NCBI GenBank assembly: GCA_022616725.1
Contig: JAKEEH010000400.1
Coordinates: forward strand, 1 to 32,644
Direction of reading: 5' to 3'
Source: Limisphaerales bacterium
GTDB taxonomy: Bacteria; Verrucomicrobiota; Verrucomicrobiia; Limisphaerales; JAKEEH01
DNA: 32,644 nt
Shown here: positions 857-24,676 of the stretch, one piece after another
How the letters are laid out: each line of letters starts with the position of its first letter
How positions within the stretch are numbered: the stretch's first letter is position 1
The notes under the pieces: generated by a model
What the model was told of the DNA's origin: nothing
Database searches by the model: none
What the model saw: the letters and a program-made list of their open reading frames with translations, nothing else
Program-made: the position numbers and the translations under genes

Positions 857-1264
857 ATGTGTAAAGTCAATTCATCGCTCTATCCGCTGCATGACGCGAG
901 TGCGCGGCCCGCGACGGCGGGGCAAACCCACTGGATACCGAACACGGACGTATATGTGGCGGATGAAACGCTGGTTATCAAAGTCGAGTTGGCGGGAATG
1001 CGCCGCGAAGACCTGGAACTGGCCATCGACGGGAGCAGGCTGATGATCAGCGGGCAGCGGCCGGACGGCAGCCGCGGCAACAAGTGCAAGTTTCTCGTGG
1101 TCGAGATCAATTATGGCCCTTTTGAGTGCGTGATCGAGATCCCGGCCGGATACGATCTATCGAAAGCGCGTGCGGCGTATCAGAATGGCTTTCTTAACGT
1201 GGAGGTGCCGCAGGTCGTGGCGCGCGCCAAGCCGAATACCGTCGTCCTTTCCGACGAAAAATAA
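857..1264 (+). CDS. Hsp20 / alpha-crystallin family small heat-shock protein
   Basis: This is an ATP-independent holdase that binds unfolding proteins in the cytoplasm. The 135-residue product has a short N-terminal arm and an alpha-crystallin domain from about residue 28 to 120. It shows the usual start (W-x-P-x-x-D-V-Y), the VELAGMRREDLEL segment typical of class A bacterial Hsp20, an ISGQR strand and the C-terminal NGFLNVEVP that corresponds to the family's A-x-x-x-(n)-GVL motif. A C-terminal I-x-I motif is not obvious. It lies 50 nt upstream of lon on the same strand, a natural pairing of holdase and protease that suggests co-expression under protein-folding stress. I saw no CIRCE element. 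Confidence 0.92.
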   Translation: MCKVNSSLYPLHDASARPATAGQTHWIPNTDVYVADETLVIKVELAGMRREDLELAIDGSRLMISGQRPDGSRGNKCKFLVVEINYGPFECVIEIPAGYDLSKARAAYQNGFLNVEVPQVVARAKPNTVVLSDEK

Positions 1265-1314
1265 CCTTTCTGAACCTTTTGGGCTTCCGGGGCATCTAAT
1301 GTCAAAGTGACTTG

Positions 1315-3723
1315 ATGATGACCTCGCCCGAAACAGAGTTTATTCGCATCCTCGGGGCCGCGCCGGAAACCGGCGACACACGGTTGTTGCGCACGACAGC
1401 CAAGACCCCGCCGACTGTTCTGCCCATTCTCGGCCTGTCAGACATTGTCATCTTCCCGGGGATGGTCGCGCCTTTGCTGGTCGATACTGTCCAGAGCACT
1501 CGCCTCATCGATGACGTAGTCGAAGGCGACCGCCTGCTCGGCCTGGTTCTGCAGCGCAAGCCAGATATCGATAATCCGCAGCCGGAGGATCTCTACGAGT
1601 TCGGCTGTGGCGCGCGCGTTCTGAAGATGCTGAAGTTCCCGGACAACACGGTGCGCGTGCTGGTCGAGGGTTTGTGGCGGATACGGATCAAGGAATATGA
1701 GACGCAGAACCCTTACCTGCGGGCAAAAATCGAGATCCTAAAGGACATTACGCAAGACGACCTCGAAATGACCGCGCTGGCGCGTAATGCGCATCGGCAG
1801 TTCCAGGAGATTATCAAGCTGACGCCCGCGCTTTCGGATCAGGTGAAGATCGCCGCGTTGAATACCGAGGCGCCGGGGAACCTCACGGACCTGATCGCGC
1901 CCAACCTGAATCTGAATCTTGAAGAGCGGCAGGCGCTGCTGGAGACACCTGAAGTCAAGCAACGAATGATGCGTTTGCGTCCGCTGATGGACCGTGAATT
2001 GGAAGTGCTGACGCTTAGCACGAAAATCCAAAACGAGGTCACCAGCAGCATGGCCAAGAGCCAGCGTGACTTCTTCCTGCGCGAGCAGATGCGGGCCATT
2101 CAGCGTGAATTAGGCGAAGGCGACCCGACGGCGACGGAGGTCAACACCCTGCGGGAACAGGTGGAAAGAAACGGATTGCCCGAGGAAGTGCGGAAGGTCG
2201 CGTTCAAGGAACTGGAACGGCTCGGGCAGATGTCTCCGGCCGTGGCCGAATATGCGATCACGCGCAATTACCTCGATTGGCTGGTGAATCTGCCCTGGTC
2301 GAAATCGACCGTGGACACTCTGGATATCGCGACTGCACAGAAAATCCTTGACGAGCAACACTACGGCCTGGAGAAGGTCAAGGAACGGCTGCTCGAATTC
2401 ATTGCCGTGGTAAAGCTGAAACAGGACCTGAAAGGGCCGATTCTGTGTTTCGTGGGGCCGCCCGGGGTCGGCAAGACATCCCTCGGCAAGAGCGTCGCGG
2501 ACGCGCTGGGACGGAAGTTTGTGCGGATCTCGCTCGGGGGAGTGCGCGACGAAGCGGAGATTCGCGGGCATCGCCGGACGTATGTTGGGGCGCTGCCCGG
2601 CCGCATCATTCAAAGCTTGCGCCGCGCGGAGAGCCGCAACCCGGTCTTTCTTTTGGACGAGATCGACAAGATCGGCGCCGACTTTCGGGGCGACCCGGCG
2701 TCGGCGTTACTCGAAGTGCTCGACCCGCAGCAGAACAACGCATTTACGGACCATTACCTGGACGTGCCTTTCGATCTGTCGCACGTGCTGTTTATCACAA
2801 CGGCGAACTGGCTGGACCCAATCCATCCCGCGCTCCGGGATCGATTGGAAGTCATCACGTTGCCGAGCTACACGGCGACGGAAAAGTTGCAGATCGCCAA
2901 GCGCTACCTGGTGCCCCGGCAACTGGAGGAACACGGGTTGCAGCCGCGGCAGGTAAGATTCCCGGACCCGACGTTGCGCCGGCTGATCACCGAATACACG
3001 CATGAAGCGGGCGTGCGACAATTGGAACGCGAAGTGGCGTCTCTGACGCGCAAGGCGGCGCGCAAAATAATCAGCAACACCAAGCCGGCGGACCAGGCAT
3101 TGGTGATCTCAGCCGACACGCTGCCCGAGTACTTGGGCCATCCGAAGTTTATTTCCGAGACGGCCGAAAAAATCAATGAACTGGGGATCGCCATGGGCCT
3201 CGCCTGGACCCCGATCGGAGGAGAAATACTTTTCATTGAAGCAACGCGGATGCCCGGCAAAGGCCGCCTGATGCTCACGGGCTCACTTGGGGACGTGATG
3301 AAAGAGAGCGCGCAGACCGCGTTGAGTTATCTTAGGAGCCAAGCCAAAAACCTGCGCATCGACCCGGCTGAGTTTGACAAATACGACATTCACGTGCACG
3401 TGCCGGCTGGGGCGACGCCAAAGGACGGCCCCAGCGCGGGCGCGACCATCGTCGTGGCGCTGGCGTCGCTGTTTATTCGCAAGCTTGTGCGGTCCGACGT
3501 CGCGATGACGGGTGAGATCAGCCTGCGCGGGCGCATTCTGCGCGTCGGCGGGATCAAGGAGAAAGTGATGGCGGCGGCGCGCTCGGGGTTGAAACAGGTG
3601 ATTTTGCCGGCGGAAAACCGCAACGATTGGCTGGAAGTGCCGGCAGAGGTCCGCGAGAAAATGCAGGCGCATTTCGTCAAAAAGATTTCGGAGTTGATCA
3701 AAACCGCCTTAAAGGGGAAATGA
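1315..3723 (+). CDS. lon: ATP-dependent protease Lon (LonA type)
   Basis: Lon degrades misfolded and selected regulatory proteins in the cytoplasm as a homohexamer. Of the tandem starts TTG 1312, ATG 1315 and ATG 1318, I chose the ATG at 1315, giving 802 residues, the normal LonA length. The N-terminal substrate-binding LON domain spans about residues 30-220, followed by a helical region. The AAA+ module has Walker A GPPGVGKT at 381-388 and Walker B PVFLLDEIDK at 443-452. The C-terminal Ser-Lys protease domain has the catalytic Ser707 in PKDGPSAG and Lys750 in GGIKEK, with the 43-residue spacing seen in E. coli Lon. All key residues are present. The stop codon overlaps the start of the next gene (ATGA), implying translational coupling. 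Confidence 0.97.
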   Translation: MMTSPETEFIRILGAAPETGDTRLLRTTAKTPPTVLPILGLSDIVIFPGMVAPLLVDTVQSTRLIDDVVEGDRLLGLVLQRKPDIDNPQPEDLYEFGCGARVLKMLKFPDNTVRVLVEGLWRIRIKEYETQNPYLRAKIEILKDITQDDLEMTALARNAHRQFQEIIKLTPALSDQVKIAALNTEAPGNLTDLIAPNLNLNLEERQALLETPEVKQRMMRLRPLMDRELEVLTLSTKIQNEVTSSMAKSQRDFFLREQMRAIQRELGEGDPTATEVNTLREQVERNGLPEEVRKVAFKELERLGQMSPAVAEYAITRNYLDWLVNLPWSKSTVDTLDIATAQKILDEQHYGLEKVKERLLEFIAVVKLKQDLKGPILCFVGPPGVGKTSLGKSVADALGRKFVRISLGGVRDEAEIRGHRRTYVGALPGRIIQSLRRAESRNPVFLLDEIDKIGADFRGDPASALLEVLDPQQNNAFTDHYLDVPFDLSHVLFITTANWLDPIHPALRDRLEVITLPSYTATEKLQIAKRYLVPRQLEEHGLQPRQVRFPDPTLRRLITEYTHEAGVRQLEREVASLTRKAARKIISNTKPADQALVISADTLPEYLGHPKFISETAEKINELGIAMGLAWTPIGGEILFIEATRMPGKGRLMLTGSLGDVMKESAQTALSYLRSQAKNLRIDPAEFDKYDIHVHVPAGATPKDGPSAGATIVVALASLFIRKLVRSDVAMTGEISLRGRILRVGGIKEKVMAAARSGLKQVILPAENRNDWLEVPAEVREKMQAHFVKKISELIKTALKGK

Positions 3724-4493: not shown

Positions 4494-4516
4494 TTGCTTG
4501 CAATCGCGCATTTCGG

Positions 4517-4531
4517 GTGGGACAGTCCCAC
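4517..4531. promoter_or_regulatory. 7-bp perfect palindrome just before the antitoxin start (candidate operator)
   Basis: GTGGGAC-a-GTCCCAC ends one base before the antitoxin ATG at 4533. AbrB-type antitoxins commonly bind palindromes over their own promoter or start, so this is a candidate autoregulatory site. In RNA it could only form a poor hairpin because the centre is too short. No -35/-10 pair is clear between 4494 and 4516. Confidence 0.35.
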
Positions 4532-4532
4532 C

Positions 4533-4778
4533 ATGAGATTAACGCCTGATGCCAAACGGCGAGTCGTGCTTCCGCTCCCAATCCAGAAGGGAGACATCCT
4601 CCTCTTGGATGAGCAGGGCAAAAACCAGTGGCTGTTGACCCGTGTGGAAAAGCCGCTCCGAAACACCCGTAGCAAGCTTAAGAGAAAGTCTGTCGCGGAC
4701 GCCCTGGCCAAATCGGCGGGCGCAAATATAGAAGTCATCGAGTTCAAGGGAGAGCGGGTGCGTCCCGTCAGGATGTGA
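4533..4778 (+). CDS. AbrB/VapB-type antitoxin
   Basis: This 81-residue protein would neutralise the PIN toxin encoded next to it. The N-terminal 40 residues (RLTPDAKRRVVLPLPIQKGD then a strand-rich LLLDEQG) fit the swapped-hairpin AbrB/MazE DNA-binding fold. The basic middle and C-terminal tail would be the toxin-binding part. The ATG at 4533 is chosen over the in-frame TTG at 4494 because the AbrB domain begins there. The stop overlaps the toxin start by four bases, the usual antitoxin-first layout. A palindrome directly upstream may be its operator. Confidence 0.7.
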   Translation: MRLTPDAKRRVVLPLPIQKGDILLLDEQGKNQWLLTRVEKPLRNTRSKLKRKSVADALAKSAGANIEVIEFKGERVRPVRM

Positions 4779-5179
4779 TCTATTTGCTCGATACGAATGT
4801 CCTGAGCGAGCGAACCAAAGCACGCCCATCTCCTGCCGTCATGGATTTTTTACGTCGGTTGCCCGCAGCGGATGTTCGCGTGCCCGCGATTGCCCTGGGA
4901 GAAATTAAACAGGGAGTCCAAAGCAATCCGACCCCGGAGTTGTGCCAGTTTCTGGAGGACGTTTTGACATTGCCGGTCGCGCCGTTTGACGAGATGGAAG
5001 CGTTGGTCTGGGGCGAAATGACCGCTGAAGTTCTGGCCAGAGGCAGAACACTCTACGTTCGGGACTCGCTTATCGCCGCCACCGCGCGGGTAAACGCTTG
5101 GACCGTTGCCACGCGGAACGTCGGCGATTTCGCTAATCTCGGCGTGAGGCTTTTCAACCCGTTTACCCAACGGCTTTAG
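4775..5179 (+). CDS. vapC: PIN-domain ribonuclease toxin (VapC/FitB-like)
   Basis: This is a predicted Mg2+-dependent ribonuclease toxin, 134 residues, the usual VapC length. The acidic active-site residues are all visible: Asp6 in LLDTNVLSE, Glu43 in ALGEIKQG, Asp97 in VRDSLIAATA and Asp118 (with Asn115) in TRNVGDF. The R-D-S-L-I-A-A-T-A and VATRNVGDF segments are characteristic of the FitB-like group. Translation starts at GTG 4775, overlapping the antitoxin stop (GTGA), so the two are translationally coupled. The module looks intact. The cellular RNA target cannot be read from the sequence. Confidence 0.87.
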   Translation: MIYLLDTNVLSERTKARPSPAVMDFLRRLPAADVRVPAIALGEIKQGVQSNPTPELCQFLEDVLTLPVAPFDEMEALVWGEMTAEVLARGRTLYVRDSLIAATARVNAWTVATRNVGDFANLGVRLFNPFTQRL

Positions 5180-12840: not shown

Positions 12841-13881
12841 CTACACCCCCATCGCTGCTTGCGCGCGCTTTCGATCCTGCCGTTCCCAATACCACGCGAT
12901 CCAGACGCTTGCCTCGTAAAGCAGTTGCAGCGGGATGAACATCATCACCTGCGTAATCACCTCGGGGGTCGTCAACACAGCCCCAAGGAGCAGGTTGATT
13001 ACGATCATGTAACGCCGCGCTTTGGACAGGATCCGGTAGTTCAGCACGCCGATCTTGACCAGCGTCAGAATCACCACCGGTAATTCAAAGCCCAGCCCCA
13101 TCCCCAGCATGAATTTGCACACGAATTTGATGTATTCCTCGGCCCGCCACTGCGTCGCGGCAAACCCCAGCCATTGCGAGTACTGTTGTGAGACCGCCAG
13201 CGCCAGCGGCATCAGGGCGAAATAACAAAAGCCGACGCCGGCGCCAAAAAGCAAGCTCCCGAAGCCCAACCCGCGATAAACGTACTTTTTCTCCTTCATC
13301 TTCAGGGCGGGAAACACAAACTGCGCCACAAAGAAGAAGATAAATGGCGCCGCCAGAACCATCCCCCCGTAAAACGCCACTTGCAACGCCACTACAAAGC
13401 CACCTACAGGCCCGAGATTGATCAAGTCGATCTGCATTTTCTGCCCGATCTCGGCGGACGCTTTAGGATCGATCCGCATGGTCAGCGCCCATTCGTTGGA
13501 CCCCACGGGCTTTGGCTCGATCTGCAACGCCAGAACCTGATTCGTCGGCAGATTATAGGCCGCGCGCTGATTGGTGCTGATCTGGAAAACCCCCAGCCGA
13601 TTCGTGCCCAGCAGCGCGGTGATTACCTGGACCTCCGCTGGATACTTGACCTTCGCGTTGTTGAGGGGCCGCTTGAGCAAATCGACGACCTTGTTCCCCG
13701 CGATGAGACACACGATCATCCCCAGAAAAAGCGCTACCCCGCTCTTGATCAGGACCCACCGCAGGTCCTCCAGATGTTCGAGGAACGGCTTGACCGGCCC
13801 GCCTTCCTCTTCTTCAGGCGTCTCGGCCTGGTGGGGTTCGTCCTCGATTTGTGGGCGTGGATCTTCGGTCTGAGTGGCCAT
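12841..13881 (-). CDS. tatC: Sec-independent protein translocase TatC with long periplasmic loop
   Basis: TatC is the multi-spanning receptor that binds twin-arginine signal peptides and, with TatA, exports folded proteins across the inner membrane. The product is 346 residues; typical TatC is near 250. It shows a Glu/Pro-rich cytoplasmic head, the conserved FLEHLEDLR motif before helix 1, and the remaining helices with family features such as LAAPFIFFFVAQFVFPALKMKEK and FELPVVILTLVKIGV. The extra length is mainly about 85 residues between helix 1 and helix 2 (roughly residues 65-150), in the first periplasmic loop. tatA lies 17 nt upstream on the same strand, a classic tat operon. Confidence 0.95.
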   Translation of the reverse strand: MATQTEDPRPQIEDEPHQAETPEEEEGGPVKPFLEHLEDLRWVLIKSGVALFLGMIVCLIAGNKVVDLLKRPLNNAKVKYPAEVQVITALLGTNRLGVFQISTNQRAAYNLPTNQVLALQIEPKPVGSNEWALTMRIDPKASAEIGQKMQIDLINLGPVGGFVVALQVAFYGGMVLAAPFIFFFVAQFVFPALKMKEKKYVYRGLGFGSLLFGAGVGFCYFALMPLALAVSQQYSQWLGFAATQWRAEEYIKFVCKFMLGMGLGFELPVVILTLVKIGVLNYRILSKARRYMIVINLLLGAVLTTPEVITQVMMFIPLQLLYEASVWIAWYWERQDRKRAQAAMGV

Positions 13882-13898
13882 GAAGGGCGCCCGACCGA

Positions 13899-14189
13899 TC
13901 AGGCCTTGTTTTCCGTGTGCGGAACGGCCTTGGATTCAGCGTTTTCAGGCAGATTCTTCTGCGCCGAATAATCGATCTTGCGTGGCGGCGGCGACGAATA
14001 ATTGTCCTCATCCACCGCGCTCTGGATCTCGTCGGTCACTTCCCGCGTCGCTTTCTTGAATTCCTTGATCCCGCTGCCCAGGCCCTTCGCCAATTCGGGC
14101 AGCTTCTTGGCCCCAAACAGGATCAACACCACCGCCAGGATCAATACGATCTCCCACCCACCCAAAAACGCAGCGAACAAAGTATTCAT
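13899..14189 (-). CDS. tatA: Twin-arginine translocase subunit TatA/TatE family
   Basis: TatA forms the protein-conducting assembly of the Tat system. The 96-residue product has the short N-terminal membrane helix ([17 protein letters not shown]), the [14 protein letters not shown] hinge and an amphipathic helix ([13 protein letters not shown]), followed by a polar tail. The FG hinge and the KLPEL segment are diagnostic for the TatA/B/E family. Only one such gene is present here, so it may serve both TatA and TatB roles, as in minimal Tat systems; a tatB elsewhere cannot be excluded. It precedes tatC by 17 nt. Confidence 0.94.
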
Positions 14190-22159: not shown

Positions 22160-22735
22160 ATGAATAGTGTCAAACAATGTTCGGTGAACGGATTCGGCTC
22201 GGTTTCGAAAGGAGTCAGGAAAAAACTGGGTGTGATCGCAGTGGCTACGGGTTTGGCCGTGGCGGCGTTTGCCCCCGTTTCCGCGCAGGCGGAGACGATT
22301 ACTCAACTTGAATGTCTGCAATGGTTGGCTCAGGTAACTGGCGAGTCCGGCCAGGCGGACTACGTGCAATGGGCCGGCAGCAAGGGCATAAACCCTGCCG
22401 GCGGCATCCAGCCCAACGCGATCCTGACCCGGGAAGCGCTGGCCCAGATAGTGGGGCAGCTTCTGGGACTTAACGGCAGTAAACGTGGCGCGTCGGACTG
22501 GGCGCAACGCTTGCAGCGCGAAGGCATTGAATTGCCAAGCGAACTGGACCGCGCGAGCATCGTCAGCATGATTGGCAGCATGAACGATCGCCTCGGGACC
22601 ATCGCCGCGACCGATCCGAGCCCGCGCCGCAAAGGTAACGCCGGCCGTGGTAATGGTGAAGATCCGCCGCCTCCTGGCTGGAACAAGAATCCGCGCAATC
22701 CGCACTTCGGGGTGCCGGAAGAGCCGGGTCGATAA
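22160..22735 (+). CDS. Exported protein of unknown function upstream of the O-antigen ligase-like gene
   Basis: I do not recognise the family. The 191-residue product has a long n-region, then a signal peptide (KKLGVIAVATGLAVAAFAP) cleaved near SAQAE. The mature part has a helical core (ECLQWLAQVTGE, then LTREALAQIVGQLLGLNG) faintly like one S-layer-homology unit: helix, a loop, then a Thr-Arg-Glu start to the next helix. A second similar helical stretch is WAQRLQREGIELPSELD. The C-terminus is low-complexity, rich in Gly, Pro, Asn and Arg (GEDPPPPGWNKNP). The gene has its own promoter and lies 66 nt before a polysaccharide polymerase or ligase gene; a role in the same surface-glycan pathway is inference. 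Confidence 0.72.
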   Translation: MNSVKQCSVNGFGSVSKGVRKKLGVIAVATGLAVAAFAPVSAQAETITQLECLQWLAQVTGESGQADYVQWAGSKGINPAGGIQPNAILTREALAQIVGQLLGLNGSKRGASDWAQRLQREGIELPSELDRASIVSMIGSMNDRLGTIAATDPSPRRKGNAGRGNGEDPPPPGWNKNPRNPHFGVPEEPGR

Positions 22736-22743
22736 ATCTCCGA

Positions 22744-22806
22744 CTCATAGTAAGGTTCCTGAAGACTTGACTATGACGGTGCAAGCTTAGGAACCTTAGT
22801 CATGAG
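22744..22806 (+). promoter_or_regulatory. Long inverted repeat that can pair the ribosome-binding site and start codon of the ligase gene
   Basis: TAAGGTTCCT (22751-22760) is perfectly complementary to AGGAACCTTA (22789-22798) around a 28-base loop. Outside it, CTCAT (22744-22748) pairs with ATGAG (22802-22806) across a small internal loop. The right arm contains the AGGA ribosome-binding site and the outer pair contains the ATG at 22802. There is no T tract, so it is not a standard terminator. Confidence 0.6.
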
Positions 22807-24676
22807 GAACGTCCTGGCAGGTGCCATGGTAATCACCATGGCACTCTGCCTTATAGTGGGTGTCGTTTGGTTTGGCGCGGTGACTGTCGATGTCGCCGCG
22901 CCTGCTTTTGCCTTTGCGGTCCTGCTTGGGCTCCTCTGGGCCGGGAAGCTCTTCTTCATGCGGGTGGTCTCGTGGAAGAGCTCACCGATGCACTGGCCAG
23001 TCCTCGCCTTCACCGCCTATGCCGTCATCCGATACTTTGCCTCTCCTATAGAATATGATTCCCGGATGGAGCTTTTTAACGTGCTCCTCCTGGCGTTTGT
23101 ATATTTTGTCTGCGCGTTCAACTTTTATCGCTCCCGTGACCGCAACATTCTGTTGATTGCTCTGTTGGCGCTCACGTTGGGAGAAGCGATTTATGGGTTG
23201 TGGCAGTTCGGCACCAAGTCCGATGCTGTTCTGAACGAATTGCGCCCGCTGAGCTATCGTGGCAGGGCCAGCGGGACTTACTTCTGCCCGAATCACCTCG
23301 CCGGCCTCCTTGAAATTGTGATTTGCCTGGCCATCGGCCGGATTGCGGTGCAGCGGTTTTCGCGCAAATCGGTGGAGAAATCGGCGCTGCAGAAAATAGT
23401 CATTCTTTACATCACCCTGTTCCTCATTACGTGCCTGATCGTGACGTTGTCGCGCTCAAGCTGGGCCTCGCTCGCCGTCGCGCTGGCCACACTGTTCTTC
23501 TGGGGCGACTGGGATTGGCGTGTAATGTGGCCGCGCCTGGCGGTAGCGTTTGCCGCCGTGTGCGCTATCGGGCTGCTCGTTTACAACATCACGCCGGTCC
23601 GAATTTATGTGCAGGAAACCCTCTCCGGGGAACAGGCCAAGGACGGCTCGGCGTTTCGCGATCCAAGCTTTGGCGGGCGGACTCTCATGTGGGGCGCGAC
23701 GGCCGGCATGATCAAGGACTACCCGGCATTAGGGACCGGTCCGGGGACCTGGCAATGGTTTCATCCCAAGTATCGCCCCCAGGAGCTTCAGGCGCATCCG
23801 GAGCATGCGCACAACGACATTTTGCAACTCGCCTCGGATTACGGCTTGATCGGGTTCGGAATCGTCGTTTGGGCATTTGTGGCCTTCTATCGTCACGCCG
23901 GGTTGCTGGCGCGGCGCAATACGTCTTCCGAGCAACGCTCCTTTGCCGTCGGTTCCGCCCTGGCAGTGACCGCAACGCTGGTTCACTCCTGGTTCGATTT
24001 CAACATGCATATCCTGGCCAACGCCCTCCTGCTGGTAACGCTTATGGGCTTCACCGTGGCGATGGACGACAGTGGAGAGCGTTACAAGAGACAGGAATTG
24101 CCACGCCTGCCCAGGTTTGCCCTCGGCCTCGCGATTCTGGCGCTTTGCGCGGGGGCGATCTGGTTTGTGCGCCCGGCCGCTCTGGCGTTTTCTTACACCA
24201 CCGAAGGCGACGATTCGAAGGACATCCTGCAATGGGATCGCGCGCTCGCGCTCTACAACACGGCTATGCGGTTTGATCCAAAACTGCCCGACGCCTACTA
24301 CAAAGCCGGCCAGGTTGCCGCCTCGAAAGCCCGCTGGCGGATCGGCCCCGACAAGGCTGAAGAGCGGAAACAACTCGCCCGCGAGGCCGTCGGTTATTTT
24401 GAGCGCGCCGTGGCGCTGAACCCTTTCCACACGTTCGCGATCATCCGGCTGGGGCAGGCGTATGAGATGGCGGGCGATTTTGAAGCTGCCGCCCGGTGTT
24501 TCAAGCGCGCCATCGAGCTGGAGCCGACCAGCGCCTACGTTTACGAACAAATGGGACTTTTCAGCCGCCGTACCGGCGACGAAGCTGCCGCCCTCGAAGC
24601 GTTTGAAAAGTCGCGCAAGCTGCGATGGGACATCGTTGCGGAGCTTAACATTTTAGACCTGAAGGCGCCCCAATAG
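22802..24676 (+). CDS. O-antigen ligase / polymerase family (Wzy_C) membrane protein with C-terminal TPR domain
   Basis: This family transfers or polymerises lipid-linked glycans on the periplasmic side of the inner membrane. The 624-residue product has about ten to twelve membrane helices over residues 5-460. Family signatures are CPNHLAG (164-167), TLSRSSWASL (Arg218), the periplasmic loop LGTGPGTWQWFHPKYRP (310 onward) and EHAHNDILQLASDYGLIGF (His335, His337), where catalysis is thought to occur. Residues 470-610 are TPR repeats (AALEAFEKS, EAAARCFKRAIELEP). The ATG at 22802 sits in an inverted repeat; ATGs at 22826 and 22838 lie in a second hairpin. Distinguishing ligase, polymerase and protein glycosyltransferase is not possible from sequence alone. 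Confidence 0.88.
   Translation: MRNVLAGAMVITMALCLIVGVVWFGAVTVDVAAPAFAFAVLLGLLWAGKLFFMRVVSWKSSPMHWPVLAFTAYAVIRYFASPIEYDSRMELFNVLLLAFVYFVCAFNFYRSRDRNILLIALLALTLGEAIYGLWQFGTKSDAVLNELRPLSYRGRASGTYFCPNHLAGLLEIVICLAIGRIAVQRFSRKSVEKSALQKIVILYITLFLITCLIVTLSRSSWASLAVALATLFFWGDWDWRVMWPRLAVAFAAVCAIGLLVYNITPVRIYVQETLSGEQAKDGSAFRDPSFGGRTLMWGATAGMIKDYPALGTGPGTWQWFHPKYRPQELQAHPEHAHNDILQLASDYGLIGFGIVVWAFVAFYRHAGLLARRNTSSEQRSFAVGSALAVTATLVHSWFDFNMHILANALLLVTLMGFTVAMDDSGERYKRQELPRLPRFALGLAILALCAGAIWFVRPAALAFSYTTEGDDSKDILQWDRALALYNTAMRFDPKLPDAYYKAGQVAASKARWRIGPDKAEERKQLAREAVGYFERAVALNPFHTFAIIRLGQAYEMAGDFEAAARCFKRAIELEPTSAYVYEQMGLFSRRTGDEAAALEAFEKSRKLRWDIVAELNILDLKAPQ
22821..22844 (+). repeat. Perfect 10-bp stem, 4-base loop hairpin at codons 7-15 of the ligase gene
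   Basis: GTGCCATGGT-aatc-ACCATGGCAC forms a strong RNA hairpin starting 19 bases after the ATG at 22802. It contains the two alternative ATG codons (22826, 22838). As coding sequence it gives GAMVITMAL, an ordinary hydrophobic segment, so the perfect palindrome is not forced by the protein. Confidence 0.6.

Follow-up and report, generated by a model that had tools for sequence, protein, structure and literature searches.

Comparison of related loci indicates that the conserved element at the junction between a small exported-protein gene and an O-antigen-ligase-like gene of a Limisphaerales bacterium is an RNA hairpin inside the ligase gene (hairpin 2), not the inverted repeat in the gap between the two genes (hairpin 1). 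The synonymous codons of the ligase gene are biased toward keeping hairpin 2. The reading that we tentatively put forward is that of a two-hairpin control element, in which hairpin 2 would be a partial terminator (attenuator) and hairpin 1 would reinforce it, with most transcripts ending behind the exported-protein gene.

The window, which is the whole stretch of DNA analysed, comprises 32,644 nt (contig JAKEEH010000400.1, assembly GCA_022616725.1) from a genome of 583 contigs that is 86% complete (G000). The two genes and every element of their junction described here lie on the + strand. The exported-protein gene (22160–22735, stop codon 22733–22735) was identified as an open reading frame of 191 aa with homologs directly upstream of the ligase gene in two other genomes, G019 and G038. 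No Pfam family was found for this protein, and no homolog of its gene was found elsewhere in the window's genome. The ligase-like gene (22802–24676) begins after a gap of 66 nt and encodes a membrane protein of 624 aa, in which a Wzy_C domain (Pfam PF04932, E 1.6e-24) is followed by TPR repeats that matched TPR families. The Wzy_C family spans both ligases and polymerases. The start at 22802 appears a better choice than the ATGs at 22826 and 22838, because the related ligase of G039 retains the residues RNVL..AM upstream of the next ATG. A second Wzy_C and TPR-like protein, with 32% identity to the window ligase, is encoded in the same genome (L043, contig C120). Elsewhere in the window a Lon protease gene is preceded by an Hsp20 gene at a distance of about 50 bases (857–3723), and neighbouring TatA-like and TatC genes occupy 12841–14189 of the - strand. 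At 4494–5179 a PIN-domain gene (Pfam PF01850) overlaps an upstream frame of 94 aa, which gave no Pfam match, in an arrangement that resembles a VapBC-type pair.

A ligase-like match was present in 242 of the 293 genomes of the order, and the exported-protein gene was found in three of the 293, these being the window's own genome, G019 and G038. In G019 and G038 the exported-protein gene lies directly upstream of the best ligase, with ligase identities of 45% and 38%, respectively. The ligase of G039 (43% identity) lies at a contig edge, and no homolog of the exported-protein gene was found in that genome. G019, G038 and G039 each belong to a different family of the order. The flanking genes vary among the loci that carry the pair, so that the conserved unit is the exported/ligase pair and not a larger operon. 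The start of the G019 ligase is less certain, since a further in-frame ATG lies upstream of it at 1372. No further relatives were found in the window's own family or in that of G019, the 384 genomes of the class gave no additional cases of the gene pair, and the scan of genome contigs returned only an unrelated TPR match. Other classes of the phylum contain distant homologs of the exported protein whose genes (loci L076–L094) directly precede a porin-like gene. Across the phylum such relatives, in 28 genomes besides that of the window, precede a gene for a beta-barrel porin-like protein, which corresponded to Pfam BBP2_2 in the two cases tested (L082 and L087), and no hairpin 2 was found in the porin-like genes that follow the distant homologs. 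The data suggest that the exported protein belongs to an export-linked family that has no Pfam entry.

Hairpin 2 (22816–22850; GGCAGGTGCCATGGT AATC ACCATGGCAC T CTGCC), which was absent from the original prediction for this DNA, was recognised by folding, by a test on synonymous codons and by a terminator scan of the relatives. It occupies codons 5–17 of the ligase gene, nine nt past hairpin 1, and folds at −28.1 kcal/mol (z −5.0); the two hairpins contribute equally to the folding signal of the region. A hairpin at the same codons was found at every locus with the pair, namely in the window, on contig C488 of G019, on contig C33 of G038 and in the copy on contig C12 of G019. All nine core pairs are retained in all four sequences (9/9 in 4/4), and one U-A pair is replaced by C-G in a double change that is synonymous at both third positions. 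In each of the three lineages the hairpin starts approximately +15 to +19 from the ligase start codon, with one AUG in each arm. The pair is known from these three lineages only, and covariation measured by pair count alone falls within that of shuffled sequences (114/500). The palindrome follows in part from a peptide common to the proteins (AM..TMA), and the bare pattern GCCATGG-6-CCATGGC is unspecific, occurring somewhere in 46 of 286 genomes of the order.

The contribution of the peptide was removed by a test in which the amino acids were fixed and the codons were redrawn 5000 times from the usage of the gene itself. Draws that folded as well as the native sequence numbered 50/5000 for the window, 11/5000 for G019 and 6/5000 for G038, giving p values of 0.010, 0.0022 and 0.0012, which combine to approximately 5e-6 by Fisher's method if independence is assumed. 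For the ligase of G039, which is without an exported-gene homolog, 4123 of the 5000 draws folded as well (p 0.82). The window ligase was the only open reading frame at p ≤ 0.01 among 79 tested, all of at least 200 aa and taken from the window and the other loci. These p values bear directly on the explanation that neither hairpin has a function, hairpin 2 being a side effect of the conservation of a membrane-helix peptide (AMxxTMA, which gives CCATGG twice) and hairpin 1 a product of chance. The amino-acid motif is indeed common to the three proteins and the hairpin 1 regions of the relatives reach only z ~−1.8, but the low p values persist once the peptide effect is taken out, and hairpin 1 of the window stands at z −4.1, which makes this explanation very improbable. 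Hairpin 2 might also be a DNA operator, a symmetric protein-binding site (GTGCCATGGT-4-ACCATGGCAC) that falls within the coding region by chance. The dyad is near-perfect and its 7+7 core is identical across all copies; however, the identity of the core is largely dictated by the peptide AM..TMA, beyond the core G038 keeps the pairing with different letters and the outer stem differs, and no promoter match was found near hairpin 2. We consider an operator decidedly improbable.

The terminator scan, which was based on a consensus, called hairpin 2 at three loci of the relatives, L039 (G019 C488), L040 and L042 (G019 C12), on the sense strand only and with the tails TTGCTTTTTC, TCTTTTTACG and TTGCTTTTGA, respectively. 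The same scan did not call hairpin 2 in the window, where the U-tract is poor (TCTGCCTTAT); the pyrimidine-rich stretch after the stem (TCTGCCTTATAGTG, 22845–22858) is by its sequence a weak U-tract compared with those of the relatives. In G019 the ligase gene stands between tandem copies of the exported-protein gene; the second copy begins at the end of contig C488 and continues on C12, the two contig ends being identical over more than 50 nt. The second copy retains both hairpins, its ligase ATG is changed to ATC and the body of the ligase gene is lost. Homology to the first copy stops just past CTTTGCTTTT, and the genes that follow are trpF-like and trpB-like as judged by reading of the sequence. 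A duplicated unit that ends at hairpin 2 and its U-run would weakly suggest the end of a transcription unit; the retention of the hairpins in this copy is weak evidence because it is a single case and the coding parts are closely similar.

The target of the hairpins could instead be RNA stability or the ribosome and not termination, a reading that is plausible although on balance unlikely. They would then shield the cleaved exported-protein message at its 3' end, or hairpin 2 would slow the initiating ribosome and hide the AUGs at 22826 and 22838, resulting in low ligase output from the start at 22802. The constant onset of hairpin 2 in the three lineages, the single AUG in each arm and the weak U-tract of the window are consistent with such a role. 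The U-rich tails in the relatives argue against it, as does the G019 copy in which hairpin 2 and the U-run are retained with neither a ligase start codon nor a ligase body.

Hairpin 1 was identified by repeat search and folding. It consists of a left arm (CTCATAGTAAGGTTCCT, 22744–22760) and a right arm (AGGAACCTTAGTCATGAG, 22789–22806) that contains the likely SD (AGGA, 22789–22792) and the start codon of the ligase gene. The inverted repeat was exactly as described in the original prediction: TAAGGTTCCT (22751–22760) pairs perfectly with AGGAACCTTA (22789–22798) over 10 pairs, CTCAT (22744–22748) pairs with ATGAG (22802–22806), and the left arm begins at position +9 from the stop codon. Burial of the AGGA and the start codon was likewise confirmed by ensemble calculation, which gave a probability of 0.006 for an unpaired AGGA and a cost of 13.5 kcal/mol for opening the region from the SD to the AUG. 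The segment 22700–22860 folded with an MFE of −73.6 kcal/mol, far stronger than shuffled sequences (z −5.4, 0/200), and hairpin 1 alone (22736–22812) folded at −28.8 kcal/mol (z −4.1, 2/2000 shuffles). The 120-nt segment beginning at 22741 was the most structured of 4338 such segments from both strands after correction for GC content (−5.2 sd). A scan of 22500–23100 with the Rfam covariance models gave no match at E ≤ 1, and hence no known RNA family. Hairpin 1 was rejected as a terminator in its own right, as no U-run could be read after it on either strand. A transposon end, which had been offered as another possibility, was not supported, and a dispersed repeat or mobile-element end was also rejected, since the stretch is single-copy in the 86%-complete genome.

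The sequence of the gap is unrelated between lineages. The arms of the gap hairpin are GGAGUGGCC/GGCCGCUCU in G019, GGAGUGG/CCACUCC in the second copy of G019 and CGCUC..CCC/GGG..GAGCG in G038, and these hairpins are weak relative to shuffled sequences (z −1.7, −1.7 and −1.9). Conservation of the arms is therefore largely absent, as relatives that keep both genes have unrelated and weaker hairpins, an outcome that the original prediction had named as counting against it. In the window and in G038 the fold buries the ribosome site, which in G019 is roughly half open. Such burial is therefore not conserved, and a fold in the gap may be tolerated or favoured. The best reading of hairpin 1 is that of a less conserved translational lock in the lineage of the window.

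It had been proposed that a ribosome ending on the stop codon of the exported-protein gene would open this fold and that ligase translation would depend on that of the exported protein. Standard toeprint geometry places the 3' edge of a ribosome holding the stop codon in its A site at about +15 from the P site, only ~22745, and in the calculation the 10-pair core stays closed. Masking of the sequence up to this position left the probability of an unpaired SD at 0.006, with an opening cost of 14.5 kcal/mol (from 13.5), and masking of 15 nt beyond it raised the probability to only 0.13. The distance between stop and start, 66 nt in the window, 93 nt in G019 and 38 nt in G038, also compares poorly with published limits: a distance of +38 nt removed all or nearly all reinitiation in E. 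coli (80–100% loss; PMC10666635), and phage f1 lost its coupling with a stop located well upstream of the hairpin (PMC12548453). Synthesis of the ligase coupled in this way, the ribosome site being closed by hairpin 1 and opened again when the exported protein is translated, would be consistent with the pairing of the ribosome site and start codon in the window. It would also fit G038, where the site is partly paired, the left arm begins 7 nt past the stop and a stop-bound ribosome would increase the opening of the SD from 0.010 to 0.167. Set against the closed SD of the window, the length of the gaps and the unconserved arms, this reading is improbable. The calculation, made with the ribosome halted on the upstream stop, makes translational coupling unlikely; ribosomes moving beyond that stop may still open hairpin 1.

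The repeat search and nascent folding also gave an alternative early hairpin (22745–22778, TCATAGT/ACTATGA with AAGGT/ACTT) that is nested in hairpin 1 and mutually exclusive with it. In the nascent-folding calculation it forms at −13.4 kcal/mol, with the SD free until transcribed (~22790). The early hairpin was not significant relative to shuffled sequences (z −1.7) and was not evident in the nascent folds of the relatives; a kinetic switch that frees the SD is a minor idea.

In the two-hairpin control element that we favour, the gap and the first ligase codons would operate within one exported-protein/ligase transcription unit. Hairpin 2 and the U-rich stretch would form a partial intrinsic terminator that provides the 3' end of most exported-gene transcripts, and only a fraction of transcription would run on into the ligase gene, lowering the expression of the ligase relative to that of the exported protein. 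Prompt initiation at the ligase gene would hold hairpin 2 open and allow transcription to continue, since the leading edge of a start-bound ribosome falls just short of the stem (~+15). Hairpin 1, by burying the ligase ribosome site, would reduce initiation and so strengthen the brake. A more specific proposal, that the first ligase codons double as a translation-sensitive terminator of the exported-protein gene, kept by synonymous choice in three family-level lineages and reinforced in this lineage by hairpin 1, is doubtful. If true, the continuation of RNA polymerase would depend on whether ribosomes enter at the ligase gene. On the two-hairpin reading a membrane polysaccharide enzyme may be kept scarce beside an exported partner that is presumably abundant, with no need for a promoter of its own. 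This reading would further mean that a terminator function can constrain the early codons of a gene. A point for scans of this kind is that the more conspicuous hairpin lay in the gap and the conserved one inside the gene.

Partial terminators and processing hairpins internal to operons set unequal expression of neighbouring genes. The present arrangement is similar in that a hairpin would lie between the abundant and scarce products of one transcript, but hairpin 2 lies within the coding sequence of the downstream gene, where the choice of synonymous codons maintains it. Translational coupling by RNA unfolding is known from MS2 coat/lysis, f1 VII/IX and rpmI-rplT (reviewed in PMC12548453), where, as here, an RNA fold shuts the downstream ribosome site in a co-oriented gene pair. 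In those systems the upstream frame enters or nearly reaches the fold, whereas the fold in the window is wholly within the 66-nt gap, and the core of hairpin 1 lies outside the footprint of a stop-bound ribosome and is unconserved. In the bmrB-bmrCD system of Bacillus subtilis an intrinsic terminator inside a coding region takes part in ribosome-mediated attenuation (PMC4191407). For hairpin 2 the analysis found no antiterminator fold. The resemblance to bmrB-bmrCD lies in a terminator-like hairpin that is situated within an open reading frame and whose folding may be governed by ribosomes; the bmrB terminator is located in a leader peptide ahead of the regulated genes, whereas hairpin 2 is located in the first codons of the very membrane-protein gene whose expression it would lower.
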